DNA of 46,486 nt from Lachnospiraceae bacterium NK4A144 (GTDB taxonomy: Bacteria > Bacillota > Clostridia > Lachnospirales > Lachnospiraceae). The stretch lies in contig AUJT01000029.1 of assembly GCA_000424365.1 (NCBI GenBank), positions 1-46,486 on the forward strand. Direction: 5' to 3'. The position numbers and the translations under genes were made by a program. Below, piece after piece: positions 13,647 to 19,420 of this stretch. Numbering within the stretch: position 1 is the first letter of the stretch; every line of letters begins with the position of its first letter. The notes beneath the pieces were generated by a model. The model made no database searches, was not told where the DNA came from, and was given only the letters and a program-made list of their open reading frames with translations.

Positions 13647-13904
13647 TCAGAAATTTTCCTTTAAGTACTTCTCAAGTGCCTCTGCAGCTGCATCCTCATC
13701 TGCACCCTCTACGCATACAGTGATGGTCTCACCCTGCTTAACACCCATGCCCATAAGAGCAAGAAGCTTTTTCATATCACAGGACTTGTCATCCTTCTTT
13801 ACAGTAACTGCACTGGCATAGTTCTTTGCTTCTTTTACAAGAAGTCCTGCCGGACGTGCGTGAATACCTACGGGATCAGTAACTGTAAATGTAAATTCCT
13901 TCAT
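13647..13904 (-). CDS. ptsH: PTS phosphocarrier HPr, with Lys at the Ser46 position
   Basis: An 85-residue HPr that carries phosphate from enzyme I to sugar permeases. The catalytic site GIHARPAG is intact with His15. The second conserved helix is odd: it aligns without gaps to Bacillus HPr, but where that protein has KSIMGVMSLGI this one has KKLLALMGMGV, so residue 46, the target of HPr kinase, is Lys instead of Ser. A protein of this kind could not make HPr-Ser-P, the CcpA co-repressor of catabolite repression. The start is the ATG with AAAGGA seven bases upstream; a longer in-frame extension has no homology. It is first in the ptsHI operon. Confidence 0.95.
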   Translation of the reverse strand: MKEFTFTVTDPVGIHARPAGLLVKEAKNYASAVTVKKDDKSCDMKKLLALMGMGVKQGETITVCVEGADEDAAAEALEKYLKENF

Positions 13905-14023
13905 GATGTTCCTTTCATTTTGGCCGGGGTTAATGGCACTCAATTTCTGTGCCGAAACACAGGCCGCCTATTAATATTTCTCTATCCATCCGCAAGGCGC
14001 AGACATGGATTTTATAATGTAAC

Positions 14024-14053
14024 AGTATAGTCACAATTTTAACAATTTTTCAA
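14024..14053 (-). promoter_or_regulatory. Promoter of ptsHI
   Basis: On the minus strand TTGAAA (14048-14053), an 18-nt spacer and TATACT (14024-14029). The start of transcription would be near 14017, giving a leader of about 113 nt that includes a short hairpin (CTGTG/CACAG, around 13950-13966). No cre-like site stands out. Confidence 0.6.
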
Positions 14054-14141
14054 GCAGAATATTATGCACTTTATTAAGTTTTATTTAAGCAATATGACGA
14101 TAATGTTACTTTTATTCTCACCAACATGCCTTTCAATGCTA

Positions 14142-15602
14142 TTATTCACCGAAAAGTTTTCGTTTTCGCTCTATCATTTCGTCAATCTCACTCATATATA
14201 ATTCAACATCCTTATGTGTATCGCATCTGACAGTATGTCCATTTTCAAGCAGTCTCTTTGTAACCGTTCCTGCCCCTACAGCAACTATCGACTGCACTTC
14301 TTCCATCATAAGAATGTTATAAAGGCCTTCCATACCTTTTCTCGCATATCCAGTGTTTTCAAAATTTCCACTGATATTTTTTTGCCGATACAGATAATAC
14401 GGCACGAGTCTCATGTCTTCTGCACCTTTTTCAGCGATCTTCATGGTCTTTTCAGTGTTATGCAGACAGTCATATCCCATTTTATCTATTACTTCTGCAA
14501 GTCTGGATGCTCTTTTTATAGCAAGCGAATGAACTGTCAGGTCATCTGGTCCGAGTTTCTGTATTTCCTCTATGGTATGTCTTACGTCATCATCGGTTTC
14601 ATTTGGAAGACCAAGGATCATATCCATATTGATATTGTCAAATCCTGCGTCACGAGCTTCATGAAACGCTCTCACCACATCCTCTACCGTATGGCGTCTT
14701 CCGATAAGCCTGAGAGTCTCATCTTTCATAGTCTGAGGATTTACTGAAAGCCTTGTTACACCATGTTTTTTCATCACCCTTAGTTTTTCAGGAGTAATAG
14801 AATCCGGACGTCCTGATTCCACGGTAAATTCCTGAAGATTTGAAAGGTCAAGTTCCGTTTCCAGGCATGTAAACAGTTTCTCGAACTGATCAGGTGTCAA
14901 AGTTGTCGGTGTTCCTCCACCAACATATATAGTATCTAATGTGCGCCCTTTAAACTTTTCCGCTGTAAAATGAATTTCTTTTTCTACACAATCAAGATAC
15001 TCATCCACTCGCGATGCCCATGCGCCTATAGGATATGACGTAAATGAGCAATACAGACATGTCGTAGGGCAGAAAGGAATTCCGATATAAAGGCTGTATC
15101 CTCCATGATGAAACCTTGATAATATGCGGATCTCCCTTTCAGCAATGTCAACAGCAAGGCGCTGTTTCTCATCACTTACCAGATATGTGTCACTCATGTA
15201 TTTCATTGTTTCTTCTACGGAATATCCTGCCTCAAGGCGTTTCTTGGCCATATTGGTCGGACGTATGCCGTTAAGTGTTCCCCATGGAAGTTTAGTATCA
15301 AATCTGGATGAGAGTACACGATAGAGATCCCGCTTAAGGTGATTTTTCATGTCTATCCTATCGTGTTCAGAAATATCTGAGAGAAGAAAAGCACCTATCT
15401 TTTCTTCGTTAAGGTACATGCGATATGCGTATCTTTTTTCCGCAGAAAGTCCGGGGTCCATATGAACTCCCGGGTCTGCTGCAACAATATCTGTTAATCC
15501 TTCGACAACTGCTATATTTATTTCCTCCGAAGGCAAAAATGCCTTAACAAGAGCATATAAATCATTCCTAAAAATTTCCCGGCTGATCTCGATCCGGACC
15601 AT
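14142..15602 (-). CDS. hemZ: Oxygen-independent coproporphyrinogen III oxidase-like radical SAM protein HemZ
   Basis: A 486-residue radical SAM protein of the HemZ branch. After a 150-residue N-terminal domain comes the iron-sulfur motif CPTTCLYCSF (near 172-181), then GGGTPTTL, the VESGRPD segment and the HemN-type C-terminal region. HemN-family members convert coproporphyrinogen III to protoporphyrinogen IX anaerobically; whether HemZ does the same in this organism is unclear since no other haem genes are in the window. Two starts are possible: a GTG overlapping the thiN stop codon and an ATG six bases on. AAAGGA is nine bases from the ATG but only three from the GTG, so I chose the ATG. 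It follows thiN by five bases. Confidence 0.88.
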   Translation of the reverse strand: MVRIEISREIFRNDLYALVKAFLPSEEINIAVVEGLTDIVAADPGVHMDPGLSAEKRYAYRMYLNEEKIGAFLLSDISEHDRIDMKNHLKRDLYRVLSSRFDTKLPWGTLNGIRPTNMAKKRLEAGYSVEETMKYMSDTYLVSDEKQRLAVDIAEREIRILSRFHHGGYSLYIGIPFCPTTCLYCSFTSYPIGAWASRVDEYLDCVEKEIHFTAEKFKGRTLDTIYVGGGTPTTLTPDQFEKLFTCLETELDLSNLQEFTVESGRPDSITPEKLRVMKKHGVTRLSVNPQTMKDETLRLIGRRHTVEDVVRAFHEARDAGFDNINMDMILGLPNETDDDVRHTIEEIQKLGPDDLTVHSLAIKRASRLAEVIDKMGYDCLHNTEKTMKIAEKGAEDMRLVPYYLYRQKNISGNFENTGYARKGMEGLYNILMMEEVQSIVAVGAGTVTKRLLENGHTVRCDTHKDVELYMSEIDEMIERKRKLFGE

Positions 15603-15607
15603 AATCA

Positions 15608-16258
15608 CTATTCCTTTCTACTATCTCTGCTCCATTCTCTTTCATGACTCTCATGAATGATAAGAAGCGTTCCATTTTTCACTGAAATATGCGCTTCTTT
15701 CCCTACCAGCATATTGCTGACCCCCAGCGCTGTATTATTAGTCATCACACCATCTTGCATAGAATATTTCATACCAAGGATATCAACCCCCTCTGACCTA
15801 TCCGATAACGAAAATACCGATACCATTCCTTCTGCGGTCTCCGGAAGCACAAGTGTATCATTATGAATTACCGTCATTTCCGAATCTCTGCCATATAGCC
15901 ATGCACGGGCGCCTTTTTCCGCCAGACCTGTAAGCATTTGTATATTAGCTATAGTATGGCTTTCTCTGCCTCCTGTCCCGCCAAAAATCCTGAAGTCCCT
16001 ATACCCATGTTCGAATCCTATTCCCACAGCGTGTGCGATATCCGTGTCATCTTTTTGAACTTCAAGCATTATGACATTCGGATGATCCGGTATATTACCG
16101 TCTCTTGAATCAAAATCCCCAACAACTATATCCGGGGTGATTTTTTCTCTTTTAAGATGATCATATCCGCCATCCGCAGCAATGATCAGATCTCCCTCTT
16201 CCGGTCGTATCAACAGACCAAAAAAGTCCCCCGCCCCAACAACAACACATTTTTTCAT
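15608..16258 (-). CDS. thiN: Thiamine pyrophosphokinase
   Basis: A 216-residue enzyme that converts thiamine to thiamine diphosphate with ATP. Motifs in order: AADGGYDHL (near 28-36), GDFDS (near 47), QKDDTD (near 68) and FGGTGGRESHTIANIQM (near 92-108), all typical of the family, followed by the C-terminal thiamine-binding beta domain. It starts six bases after the helicase stop codon and its stop is five bases before the hemZ start, so the three genes are cotranscribed. No TPP riboswitch is visible nearby. Confidence 0.93.
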   Translation of the reverse strand: MKKCVVVGAGDFFGLLIRPEEGDLIIAADGGYDHLKREKITPDIVVGDFDSRDGNIPDHPNVIMLEVQKDDTDIAHAVGIGFEHGYRDFRIFGGTGGRESHTIANIQMLTGLAEKGARAWLYGRDSEMTVIHNDTLVLPETAEGMVSVFSLSDRSEGVDILGMKYSMQDGVMTNNTALGVSNMLVGKEAHISVKNGTLLIIHESHEREWSRDSRKE

Positions 16259-16264
16259 CTCTGT

Positions 16265-18643
16265 TCACTCTGATTTCCAAAAGTTTTCTGCATGTTCCAA
16301 AATATTATCAGACGACACCTCTATCACATCATTCCATTCTCTAGGAAAAAGACTTTTATTATTTGCGAATCTAAATCGATCATCCAGCAGAAGAACTATT
16401 CCCCTGTCTTCTTCTGTACGTATCACTCTGCCGGCAGCCTGAAGCACCTTATTCATTCCCGGAAATCTATACGCGTAATCGAATCCATCATAGCCTTTCT
16501 CTTCAAAATAGTCCTTTAGTATCTGCCTCTCATGAACAACTTTAGGGATACCGGTTCCCACTATCACTGCACCTATGAGTGAATCAGCTCTAAGATCTAT
16601 CCCTTCAGAAAAAATTCCTCCGAGAACACAAAATCCCATGACGCTTTTTCCGGAATCTATATCAGTACCATTCACGCTTTGCATAAAACGATTTAAGAAG
16701 TCTTCTCTCATCTCTTCCGTCATGTGCGATTCCTGCATAATAATTTCAACTTCATCGTCGTCCGGAACCAGCAGTCGATACTGTTCATAGACAGATTCCA
16801 TAAAAGCATAAGAGGGAAAAAAGGCCATGTAATTTCCCTGTCGTGCTTTAGGAAGGACCTTTAAGTATTCTGCAATATGTCTGTATTCTTTTTCATTTCT
16901 CCTTGTATATCGGGAACTTACATCCGTTCCGATCAATACCGCCCTTTTGGCAGGATCAAATGACGAATGTGCGTACATTGCATAATCCGAACGATCACCG
17001 GACAGAAGATCCATATAATAGTGAACCGGCAGAAGTGTCGCCGAAAAAAATACCGTACTTCGCCCTTTTTCAAGGCATCTTTTAATATCTGCCGAGGGAT
17101 TTATGCAATAGATACGTATCATAAATCTGCCAAGTTCATCCAGTTCCGTATAGTTGGCATAACTATCGTTTTTTCGTTCTGCTGCAGACAAAAAATCACG
17201 TATTGCAAAGTAAAATTCCAAGACCGTATCGTCAGCACTTTTACCATTACGGCTCAGTGTTTCAAGCATATCATCATATCTCGCAGCTGCCTGCTGAAGT
17301 ACGTCCAAAAACAGATCCATATCCTGCCCTACAGCAAACCCATTTCCTTCTTTTTTCATCGAAAGAAGGCGCTTATTACATCTTGAAAGCGCCTCGGCGC
17401 AGGATGGAAATTCATCTGAAATGATCCTTTTTATCGTCAGAAAATCCTCTTTATACAACGTTGCACTGAACATTTCCCTTGCTCTGTCTACAAGATTGTG
17501 CGCTTCGTCGATAAGAAAAATATAGTCTCCGCGTATACCCTCTCCAAAGAACCTTTTTAATTTCACATTTGGATCAAATACATAGTTATAATCGCAAATG
17601 ACAGCATCGGAAAAAAGAGAAATATCAAGTCCCAGTTCAAACGGACAGAGTTTATGTTTTTCGCCATATTTGCGCAAAAACTCCCGTCCATACTCGTCTT
17701 CTGTCTGTAAAAGAGAGTAAAGCGCATCATTTATCCTGTCAAAATGCCCCTTTGCATATGGACAGTTTTCAGGATCACACTGCGGCTTTTCCAAAAGACA
17801 CATCTTTTCTTTTGCCTGTATGGATACGGTTTTTATTTTAAGTCCGCCTTTTCTTAACAAACTAAACGTATCCACTGCAACAGTTGCCGTTATATTTTTA
17901 GCGGTAAGATAAAAAATCCTGTCTCCTAACCGCTTTCCCAATGCTTTTACTGACGGAAACAACACTGCAAGCGTTTTTCCAACACCTGTAGGTGCCATTA
18001 AGAAAAGTCTTTTTTCATGATATATCGTTTTATATACGCCGGATGCCAGCTCTTTCTGTCCTTCTCTGAATTCATAGGGAAATTCCAGTTTTTCGGCTGA
18101 TCTGTTTCGCTTTTCTTTCCAGTCAAAAGAAAAATCTGCCCATTTCCTATATTCCGATATCAGAGCCTGAAACCACTCTGTGAGCTCATTAAAAGTATAT
18201 GTTTCGTGGAAATATTTTAGTTCTAATGTATCAAGATTACAGTACGTCATCCTTACCTGAATATTATCTATCTCGTTTTGATATGCATATATCCAGGCAT
18301 AGCATTTTGCCTGAGCAAGATGAACTGCGACCGGCTTATCAATATATTTCAGATCCCGATAAACGCCCTTGATCTCATCGATCACAGTTCCATCATCTCC
18401 ATCGATGATGCCGTCTGCCCTGCCTTCTATTATCAGATCGTACTTTTCACCTTCGGCAATATGTTTCAGCGATACTTCCGCTCTATATTCAGGTCCACCC
18501 TTTTTTTGAAGCATTCGGTGTACCCTGCCGCCGGCAAGCATTGCTTCTTCCGGTGCGGTACGCCTTCGATTATCGATATCGCCGCTCCGCAGCAGGAATT
18601 CGACCAGCGAACGCACTGATATCGTGACAGTTTCTTTCATCAT
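16265..18643 (-). CDS. PD-(D/E)XK nuclease fused to a Rad3/DinG-type iron-sulfur DNA helicase
   Basis: A protein of about 792 residues combining two activities. The N-terminal 150 residues form a Cas4/RecB-like nuclease: GRVHRMLQ, then ADGIID with the metal-binding Asp, then DEIKG (the E-x-K pair) and QAKCYAW. A superfamily 2 helicase follows: Walker A MAPTGVGKT, four spaced cysteines that fit a 4Fe-4S cluster (KMCLLEKPQC, ENCPYAKG, KLCPFELG), DEAHNL, then SATLLP and a final AAGRVIR motif VI. Such helicases unwind DNA 5' to 3' and act in repair. The start is uncertain: two consecutive ATGs at 18643 and 18640 both have weak ribosome binding sites, and a TTG further upstream adds residues with no clear homology. 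It is followed by thiN and hemZ, which are functionally unrelated. Confidence 0.88.
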   Translation of the reverse strand: MMKETVTISVRSLVEFLLRSGDIDNRRRTAPEEAMLAGGRVHRMLQKKGGPEYRAEVSLKHIAEGEKYDLIIEGRADGIIDGDDGTVIDEIKGVYRDLKYIDKPVAVHLAQAKCYAWIYAYQNEIDNIQVRMTYCNLDTLELKYFHETYTFNELTEWFQALISEYRKWADFSFDWKEKRNRSAEKLEFPYEFREGQKELASGVYKTIYHEKRLFLMAPTGVGKTLAVLFPSVKALGKRLGDRIFYLTAKNITATVAVDTFSLLRKGGLKIKTVSIQAKEKMCLLEKPQCDPENCPYAKGHFDRINDALYSLLQTEDEYGREFLRKYGEKHKLCPFELGLDISLFSDAVICDYNYVFDPNVKLKRFFGEGIRGDYIFLIDEAHNLVDRAREMFSATLYKEDFLTIKRIISDEFPSCAEALSRCNKRLLSMKKEGNGFAVGQDMDLFLDVLQQAAARYDDMLETLSRNGKSADDTVLEFYFAIRDFLSAAERKNDSYANYTELDELGRFMIRIYCINPSADIKRCLEKGRSTVFFSATLLPVHYYMDLLSGDRSDYAMYAHSSFDPAKRAVLIGTDVSSRYTRRNEKEYRHIAEYLKVLPKARQGNYMAFFPSYAFMESVYEQYRLLVPDDDEVEIIMQESHMTEEMREDFLNRFMQSVNGTDIDSGKSVMGFCVLGGIFSEGIDLRADSLIGAVIVGTGIPKVVHERQILKDYFEEKGYDGFDYAYRFPGMNKVLQAAGRVIRTEEDRGIVLLLDDRFRFANNKSLFPREWNDVIEVSSDNILEHAENFWKSE

Positions 18644-18701
18644 AATATTAAAAAAGAATCCAGTTGAGCTGAATTCCAACAGAATTGTCTATAAGCCAAA
18701 A

Positions 18702-18743
18702 ACTCCCTGTGAATGTCAGTTTAAACTTTCATTCACAGGGAGT
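18702..18743 (-). terminator. Terminator after the HPr-like gene
   Basis: A perfect 14-bp stem (ACTCCCTGTGAATG/CATTCACAGGGAGT) with a 14-nt loop, followed by TTTTT on the minus strand. It ends the transcript of the small HPr-like gene upstream and isolates the helicase operon. Confidence 0.9.
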
Positions 18744-18805
18744 CAATGCGCTAACACAGCGAGCGTTCCGTTTTTGTCTCTGAACAATATCGTGAACTGA
18801 AACAC

Positions 18806-19030
18806 TCAGGCAATAGCTAATTTATCTACCATTGCTTCAAAATTCTGATCATATCCGTTGTACTGAACTGTCAGATCTCTTGTGAGATCGAGTCCAAGAA
18901 CACCAAGTATGGACTTTGCATCAATTATAATGTGGTTATAGAACACGTCAATATCAAAATCGCACTTTCCGCTGGTACGTACAAATTCTCTGACCTGTTC
19001 GGGTTTCAGTCTGATCTTACGCTCTCTCAT
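18806..19030 (-). CDS. HPr/Crh-like protein without the catalytic histidine
   Basis: A 74-residue protein with the HPr fold pattern. The second half, with DAKSILGVLGLDLTRDLTV (Ser40), matches the KSIMGVMSLG helix that holds Ser46 in Bacillus HPr and Crh. The first half lacks the GIHARPA loop; in its place is PEQVREFV with no histidine, so it cannot carry phosphate from enzyme I. This resembles Crh, which also keeps Ser46 but not His15. A role as a regulatory partner, perhaps phosphorylated on Ser40, is inferred; no HPr kinase or CcpA is in the window. The ATG has AGAGAGG eight bases upstream, while the in-frame GTG nine bases earlier overlaps the binding site. The gene stands alone, with its own promoter and terminator. 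Confidence 0.8.
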   Translation of the reverse strand: MRERKIRLKPEQVREFVRTSGKCDFDIDVFYNHIIIDAKSILGVLGLDLTRDLTVQYNGYDQNFEAMVDKLAIA

Positions 19031-19139: not shown

Positions 19140-19167
19140 ATTATACTACGTAGATATTAAAATTCAA
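19140..19167 (-). promoter_or_regulatory. Promoter of the HPr-like gene
   Basis: On the minus strand TTGAAT (19162-19167), a 16-nt spacer and a perfect TATAAT (19140-19145). The leader would be about 100 nt. The part of this 480-nt gap between 19168 and 19333 is AT-rich and shows nothing I can name. Confidence 0.7.
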
Positions 19168-19333
19168 TGTATATTTTTAGAAAATTTACAAAAATCGTAT
19201 TCTTTTTTTACATACAAAATGCATATATTTTCGCAGCTAAACCAGCATTATAAGACACGTTTAAACAAAAATAACCCATAGGACTTATATTCATTTTTAC
19301 TTACGAAATCCATTGAATTTTACGGTAAGATAA

Positions 19334-19373
19334 AGCAAAAGGAATGTCCGATACTCCGAACATTCCTTTTGCT
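19334..19373 (-). terminator. Terminator after asnA
   Basis: AGCAAAAGGAATGT pairs perfectly with ACATTCCTTTTGCT. On the minus strand it comes after the asnA stop and the two repeat hairpins, and the stem itself carries the T-run. Confidence 0.75.
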
Positions 19374-19420
19374 TTTATAAGTTATTTCTATGATTTTTAA
19401 CGCTAAGTACTACGCACAAC

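Follow-up and report, generated by a model that had tools for sequence, protein, structure and literature searches.

Probable parting of the His15 and Ser46 sites of HPr among paralogues in a Lachnospiraceae genome

In Bacilli sugar uptake and carbon signalling are competing uses of a single HPr, which acts as carrier in the one and as signal in the other. Whether they must share one molecule is the question raised by a 46,486-nucleotide (nt) stretch of Lachnospiraceae bacterium NK4A144 (contig AUJT01000029.1, positions 1 to 46,486; hereafter the window), which encodes an HPr with lysine at position 46 and a 74-residue HPr-like protein. An earlier reading of these genes, made from the sequence only, proposed that sugar transport and carbon signalling are handled here by separate proteins. 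Our analysis makes it probable, at roughly two chances in three, that paralogues have indeed divided between them the two regulatory sites of HPr. Enzyme-I-linked HPrs, two of which occur in this genome as ptsH-ptsI pairs, would pass phosphate from His15 to the sugar permeases of the phosphotransferase system (PTS) and hold at position 46 a residue that cannot be phosphorylated. HPr kinase would act instead on histidine-less switch proteins, namely the Crh encoded beside whiA and probably also a class-wide family of loop-deleted proteins that includes the 74-residue protein. With the kinase acting on such proteins and the enzyme-I-linked HPr devoid of the serine, carbon-state signalling through Ser46 would then not need to draw on the HPr pool of sugar uptake.

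The window ptsH product has the marks of a PTS phosphocarrier. It contains His15 in a HARP loop of the HxRP form, and its gene adjoins ptsI, which lies downstream with 19 nt between the ptsH stop and the ptsI start. The gapless alignment and the residues first read from it were borne out: against the His15/Ser46 HPr of T. tengcongensis 31 of 83 residues are identical, and position 46 is lysine (residue numbers follow B. subtilis HPr). Compared with the PF00381 HPr family, the protein shares His15, the HARP loop and the adjoining ptsI, and differs in that Lys46 replaces the regulatory serine. The serine expected in a serine-controlled HPr of a low-GC Gram-positive bacterium is likewise missing from the second enzyme-I-adjoining HPr of the genome (L001), which is again His15/Lys46. 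The suggestion that Lys46 mimics a locked, serine-phosphorylated state was rejected as unlikely, because lysine is charged oppositely to phosphoserine, and Ala, Thr and Gly are found here too. A permanently non-phosphorylatable position 46 fits better.

The same residues were read in 155 HPr domains from 40 genera of the family, comprising 14 genes of this genome and 141 of the 205 matches with E ≤ 0.01 in 39 relatives (one row of this genome is weaker than that threshold). Genes were counted as neighbours when they shared the strand and lay no more than 700 nt apart; an enzyme I was called close at 44% or more identity to the window ptsI and divergent at 36–41%, a glmM neighbour had at least 40% identity, and L006 and L011, one gene on two contig ends, were counted once. 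The HPrs with a close enzyme I as neighbour number 27, from 23 genomes; all have His15 and none has Ser46, position 46 being K in 12, R in 10, A in 3, T in 1 and G in 1. Where basic, this residue would favour the binding of enzyme I. The 34 whiA-linked Crh proteins, from as many genomes, never have His at position 15 (E in 28, D in 4, Q and A in one each) and always have Ser46, with K45, G49 and M51 equally invariant. The 11 HPrs adjoining glmM all keep Ser46, 9 of them with His15, and two more beside weaker GlmM matches are His15/Ser46; S49 and L51 are found in all 13 glmM-adjacent proteins.

The kinase presupposed by the sequence-only reading is present, in this genome as a full-length protein with both Pfam domains, and in all 40 genera; the search control missed B. 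subtilis, which has an HPr kinase gene, so that presence calls are safe and absence calls would not be. The gene order at the locus is uvrC-like, hprK, glucokinase-like, murB, rapZ, whiA and L004 (hprK and whiA confirmed by Pfam, the other neighbours named by eye), placing L004 directly after whiA, some 4 kb away from hprK. Since its best matches in the PDB are B. subtilis Crh structures, this protein is the orthodox Crh of the genome. It combines the lack of His15 and the presence of Ser46 with the whiA/hprK neighbourhood and greatest likeness to B. subtilis Crh. The 74-residue protein is therefore probably not the chief serine-bearing partner that it had been thought to be, nor the sole one, since the genome (G000) encodes seven loop-deleted Ser46 paralogues (contigs C28, C3, C1, C20, C26, C33 and C42). 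We infer that HPr kinase phosphorylates Crh and the loop-deleted proteins, including that of the window, and not the Lys46 HPr; the acidic residue 15 of Crh would stand in for phospho-His15.

The description of the 74-residue protein itself as HPr-like, with the serine kept and no active-loop histidine, proved right. Alignment with HPr places Ser40, within KSILGVLGLDL, at the Ser46 position and shows a deletion, not a substitution, of six residues in the region of the active loop; the only histidine is His33. The protein scores 20.3 bits against the Pfam HPr model, below the curated cut-off of 23, and no NCBIfam model exceeds its cut-off. Its AlphaFold2 fold is confident, with a mean predicted local distance difference test score of 95 from 14 aligned sequences, one row of which is a fragment of the protein itself. 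The first 39 Foldseek ranks in the PDB all bear titles of HPr or Crh chains, with E ≤ 0.001 for 10, and relatives of 53 and 54% identity occur in two other genera. Fold, structural matches and relatives together exclude a chance open reading frame, and the frame is a real gene. By eye, from the translations, a helicase-like gene lies 3′ of it here and 3′ of its relative in genome G029.

Fifteen loop-deleted proteins could be read, from 9 genomes. All have K45, Ser46 and G49, residue 47 is I, L or M, and outside its own subclade the family is just 28–34% identical to the window member. In a tree built without columns 15 and 46, which leaves 94 of its 152 inner branches open, these 15 rows form a clade with a Shimodaira-Hasegawa-like approximate likelihood ratio test (SH-aLRT) value of 99, and the 44 GlmM-type rows another with a value of 98. 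A profile of the loop-deleted family matches 158 of 196 genomes of the class at E ≤ 1e-4; the best match is below 1e-12 in 110 of these, and in the 48 with weaker matches only, these may be ordinary HPr or Crh. The 15 best-matching loci are all loop-deleted with Ser46.

The distribution of enzyme I provides additional clues. It was found in 36 of the 40 genera, the exceptions being G002, G024, G027 and G031. An HxRP HPr with His15 was read in all 36 genera with enzyme I versus none of the four without. In the latter, six of ten HPr matches were read, the other four scoring below the rows listed; all six have Ser46 and none His15. Within the GlmM-type clade, His15 is present in all 42 rows from enzyme-I-bearing genomes and in neither of the two rows from genomes without it, which carry Gln and Asp at position 15; a Fisher test that disregards kinship gives p 0.001. 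Thus His15 follows enzyme I in its distribution, and Ser46 and HPr kinase do not.

A scan of GTDB for enzyme-I-type HPrs gave at least 497 confirmed loci. The best 80, on which the following counts are based, were ranked by likeness to the window HPr and so lean towards the query, although the two search patterns leave out position 46. All 80 have His15, and position 46 is K in 52, R in 18, S in 5, A in 3, Q in 1 and E in 1; for the 66 loci that also show enzyme I the counts are K47, R12, A3, S3 and E1. Ser46 is absent from the 21 Lachnospiraceae and 24 Oscillospiraceae loci with enzyme I, including Faecalibacterium, Gemmiger and Oribacterium, and the three Ser46 loci with enzyme I are metagenome-assembled genomes of Synergistales. 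In L234 and L294 a loop-deleted-type match, short in L234, lies directly 3′ of ptsI on the same strand.

Reading the serine through CcpA, as the sequence-only reading supposed, is unsupported by our searches. The ccpA model TIGR01481 exceeded its cut-off in none of the 40 genera (best 249.6 bits versus 442), although this cut-off, based on Bacilli, may miss a clostridial CcpA. We take Arg304 of B. subtilis CcpA to be the equivalent of Arg303 in B. megaterium CcpA, and Lys307 to be a contact residue. None of the 15 LacI-type matches of this genome keeps the equivalents of both Arg303 and Lys307, L317 retaining Arg303; the arginine is missing from all nine best LacI-type matches in relatives, of which L208 has Lys in both positions. 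In B. subtilis CcpA, phosphorylated Ser46 is contacted by Arg304 (PMC4591507). Nontranscriptional targets are plausible by analogy, because B. subtilis Crh, in its unphosphorylated form, also inhibits methylglyoxal synthase (PMC12291648 and PMC13130090). As a guess, the Ser-phosphorylated forms might bind partner proteins such as an enzyme, or a LacI-type regulator devoid of the Bacillus CcpA contact residues. Furthermore, since a His15Asp HPr relieved repression in T. saccharolyticum (PMC3526391), acidity at position 15 may by itself change the binding to a CcpA-like partner.

Several results weigh against a parting of the two sites, or at least against a complete one. The sequence-only reading had named another ptsH product with both His15 and Ser46 as its refutation, and this genome has two: L006, in which His15 is joined by an intact KSIMG, and the GlmM-type L003, whose gene adjoins glmM and whose patch after the serine is altered. 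The parting is thus incomplete. All six HPrs beside a divergent enzyme I are His15/Ser46, and so are the only HPrs read in six of the 36 enzyme-I-bearing genera (G020, G022, G026, G032, G034 and G039). In G029 the sole enzyme I adjoins a His15/Ser46 HPr and two Asn46 HPrs lie elsewhere. The enzyme-I-type group of the tree (48 rows) has an SH-aLRT of just 86 and holds a few Ser46 rows, L006 among them; five of the best 80 loci of the GTDB scan have Ser46; 64 of the 205 matches in relatives fall outside the reading; and kinship is left in the Fisher tests. The proposal of separate proteins is retained in part. Across the family the lack of Ser46 in HPrs beside a close enzyme I stands, as does the presence of HPr kinase, but not the exclusion of dual proteins or the choice of the main serine-bearing partner.

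These dual proteins leave room for a scenario without any functional split, in which carrier and signal are one and the same protein, L006 or L003, and the Lys46 HPrs supply no more than a subset of the permeases. The occurrence of His15/Ser46 HPrs with an intact HxRP motif in 31 of the 40 genera speaks for it, as do the six enzyme-I-bearing genera in which no other His15 HPr was read. Nevertheless, we regard it as unlikely given that both enzyme-I-adjoining HPrs of this genome carry Lys46, and that in most glmM-adjacent proteins V47, L48, S49 and L51 replace the I/L-M-G-M patch. The original proposal that the 74-residue protein is itself the Crh of the genome and acts with CcpA finds some basis in its lack of His15, its serine and the presence of HPr kinase. 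However, a full-length Crh occupies the whiA position, the 74-residue protein belongs to a separate, well-supported clade and lacks residues of the 12–17 region that a full-length domain includes, and no Bacillus-type CcpA was recognised by TIGR01481 or by the two contact residues. We rejected it as the orthodox Crh, and the proposal as a whole is highly improbable. A further alternative would make the protein a structural adaptor on the HPr scaffold, with the serine used for helix capping only and Crh alone signalling. Arg17 and the entire active loop are absent, that loop may contribute contacts in the known HPr kinase complex, and we know of no partner of the protein, all of which favours such a role; the invariance of K45, S46 and G49 in so divergent a family makes it quite improbable nonetheless.

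The parting of the two sites can be set against known systems. The His-less paralogue with Ser46 is shared with B. subtilis and G. kaustophilus, where L004 has its counterpart in Crh. Crh is phosphorylated at Ser46 by HPr kinase and, in G. kaustophilus, is reported to be the main factor of ribose repression rather than HPr (PMC13130090). In contrast to Gln15 of B. subtilis Crh, 32 of the 34 whiA-linked Crh proteins have Glu or Asp; B. subtilis HPr keeps Ser46 and overlaps with Crh, whereas the enzyme-I-linked HPr here lacks it; and the loop of Bacillus Crh is wholly absent from the 74-residue protein. Other Clostridia share HPr and HPr kinase, and T. saccharolyticum also Crh genes (PMC3526391). 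C. difficile HPr is phosphorylated at Ser45 (PMC8730811) and T. aotearoense CcpA bound only Ser46-phosphorylated HPr (PMC4634974); these HPrs keep the serine, unlike the enzyme-I-linked HPr here. A literature search that covered few subscription journals, and is thus weak evidence, returned no account of Ser46 loss in enzyme-I-linked HPrs of these families, of the loop-deleted proteins or of the HPr-dehydrogenase fusion described below.

A broader proposal, which we hold tentatively, is that in many gut and rumen Clostridia the HPr kinase switch is uncoupled from both the sugar PTS and a Bacillus-type CcpA, with the HPr of enzyme I immune to control through serine. The true clients of the kinase would be Crh proteins, whose acidic residue 15 permanently takes the place of phospho-His15, and the class-wide loop-deleted mini-HPrs, and both the kinase and these Ser46 proteins would persist in genera that lost enzyme I. 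If the parting is true of common gut and rumen bacteria, models of catabolite repression from Bacillus would not be transferable to them. Crh, whose role in Bacillus overlaps with that of HPr, could then be studied where it possibly stands alone. Genera with HPr kinase and Crh but no enzyme I would be natural PTS knockouts, and the loop-deleted family would offer new candidate substrates of HPr kinase across the class.

The genome encodes at least 15 HPr-domain open reading frames. The Pfam search gave 15 matches at E ≤ 10, which reduce to 14 frames with L006 and L011 merged, and one more, on contig C42, came from a profile of the short family. L004, L007 and L008 are full length without His15 and with Ser46. 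Four of the six loop-deleted paralogues in the tree (C28, C1, C20 and C33) group together with SH-aLRT 87, which suggests recent amplification. L003 (L024:6232-6513) belongs to the GlmM-type clade, which is distinct, often lies beside glmM and has the motifs GLHLRP and KSVLS. L005 (L025:10590-11888, G000:C5) is a His15/Asp46 HPr fused to a D-2-hydroxyacid dehydrogenase, with relatives in L321, L322, L323 and L324. A search of 41 genomes of the genus found such fusions, 433–447 residues long, in five, all with His15 and with Asp46 in four and Asn46 in one; no comparable long HPr frame is among the matches listed from the 39 other genera. They could, as a guess, couple PTS phosphorylation to a lactate-type dehydrogenase. 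Another genome of the genus (G052:C55, L325:3094-4899) encodes a His15/Gly46 HPr domain at the C-terminus of a PTS EIIB-EIIC protein. In the present genome eight EIIC genes (PF02378) score above cut-off. The second ptsH-ptsI pair (L023:1878-5936, G000:C3) is followed, by eye, by EIIA/EIIB-like genes, and a 110-residue membrane-like frame after the pair may be a remnant.

Table 1. Positions of the HPr-related genes and candidate signals in the window
Feature	Position	Strand	Evidence
ptsH, HPr with His15 and Lys46, 85 residues	13647-13904	minus	Pfam PTS-HPr (PF00381), 100.4 bits; residues checked
ptsI, enzyme I, 541 residues	12002-13627	minus	PEP-utilizers_C, PEP-utilisers_N and PEP-utilizers domains
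Loop-deleted HPr-like protein, 74 residues, Ser40 equivalent to Ser46	18806-19030	minus	alignment, AlphaFold2, Foldseek, tree clade
Candidate sigma-70-like promoter TTGAAT-16-TATAAT, upstream of the 74-residue gene	19140-19167	minus	consensus scan, weak
Inverted repeat 3′ of the 74-residue gene, possible terminator	18702-18743	minus	21-nt arms, 90% complementary; absent from terminator scan output
Inverted repeat between the 74-residue gene and its upstream neighbour, possible terminator of that neighbour	19332-19375	minus	19-nt arms, 95% complementary

The promoter-like site and the inverted repeats on either side suggest that the 74-residue gene is transcribed alone. The consensus scan around it gave five sites versus 2.3 (standard deviation 1.7) in shuffled sequences, a weak excess, and a further match falls inside the gene. 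Four of the loci viewed, L030, L171, L306 and L311, carry a loop-deleted gene in divergent orientation to a neighbouring mtaB-like gene (assigned by eye).

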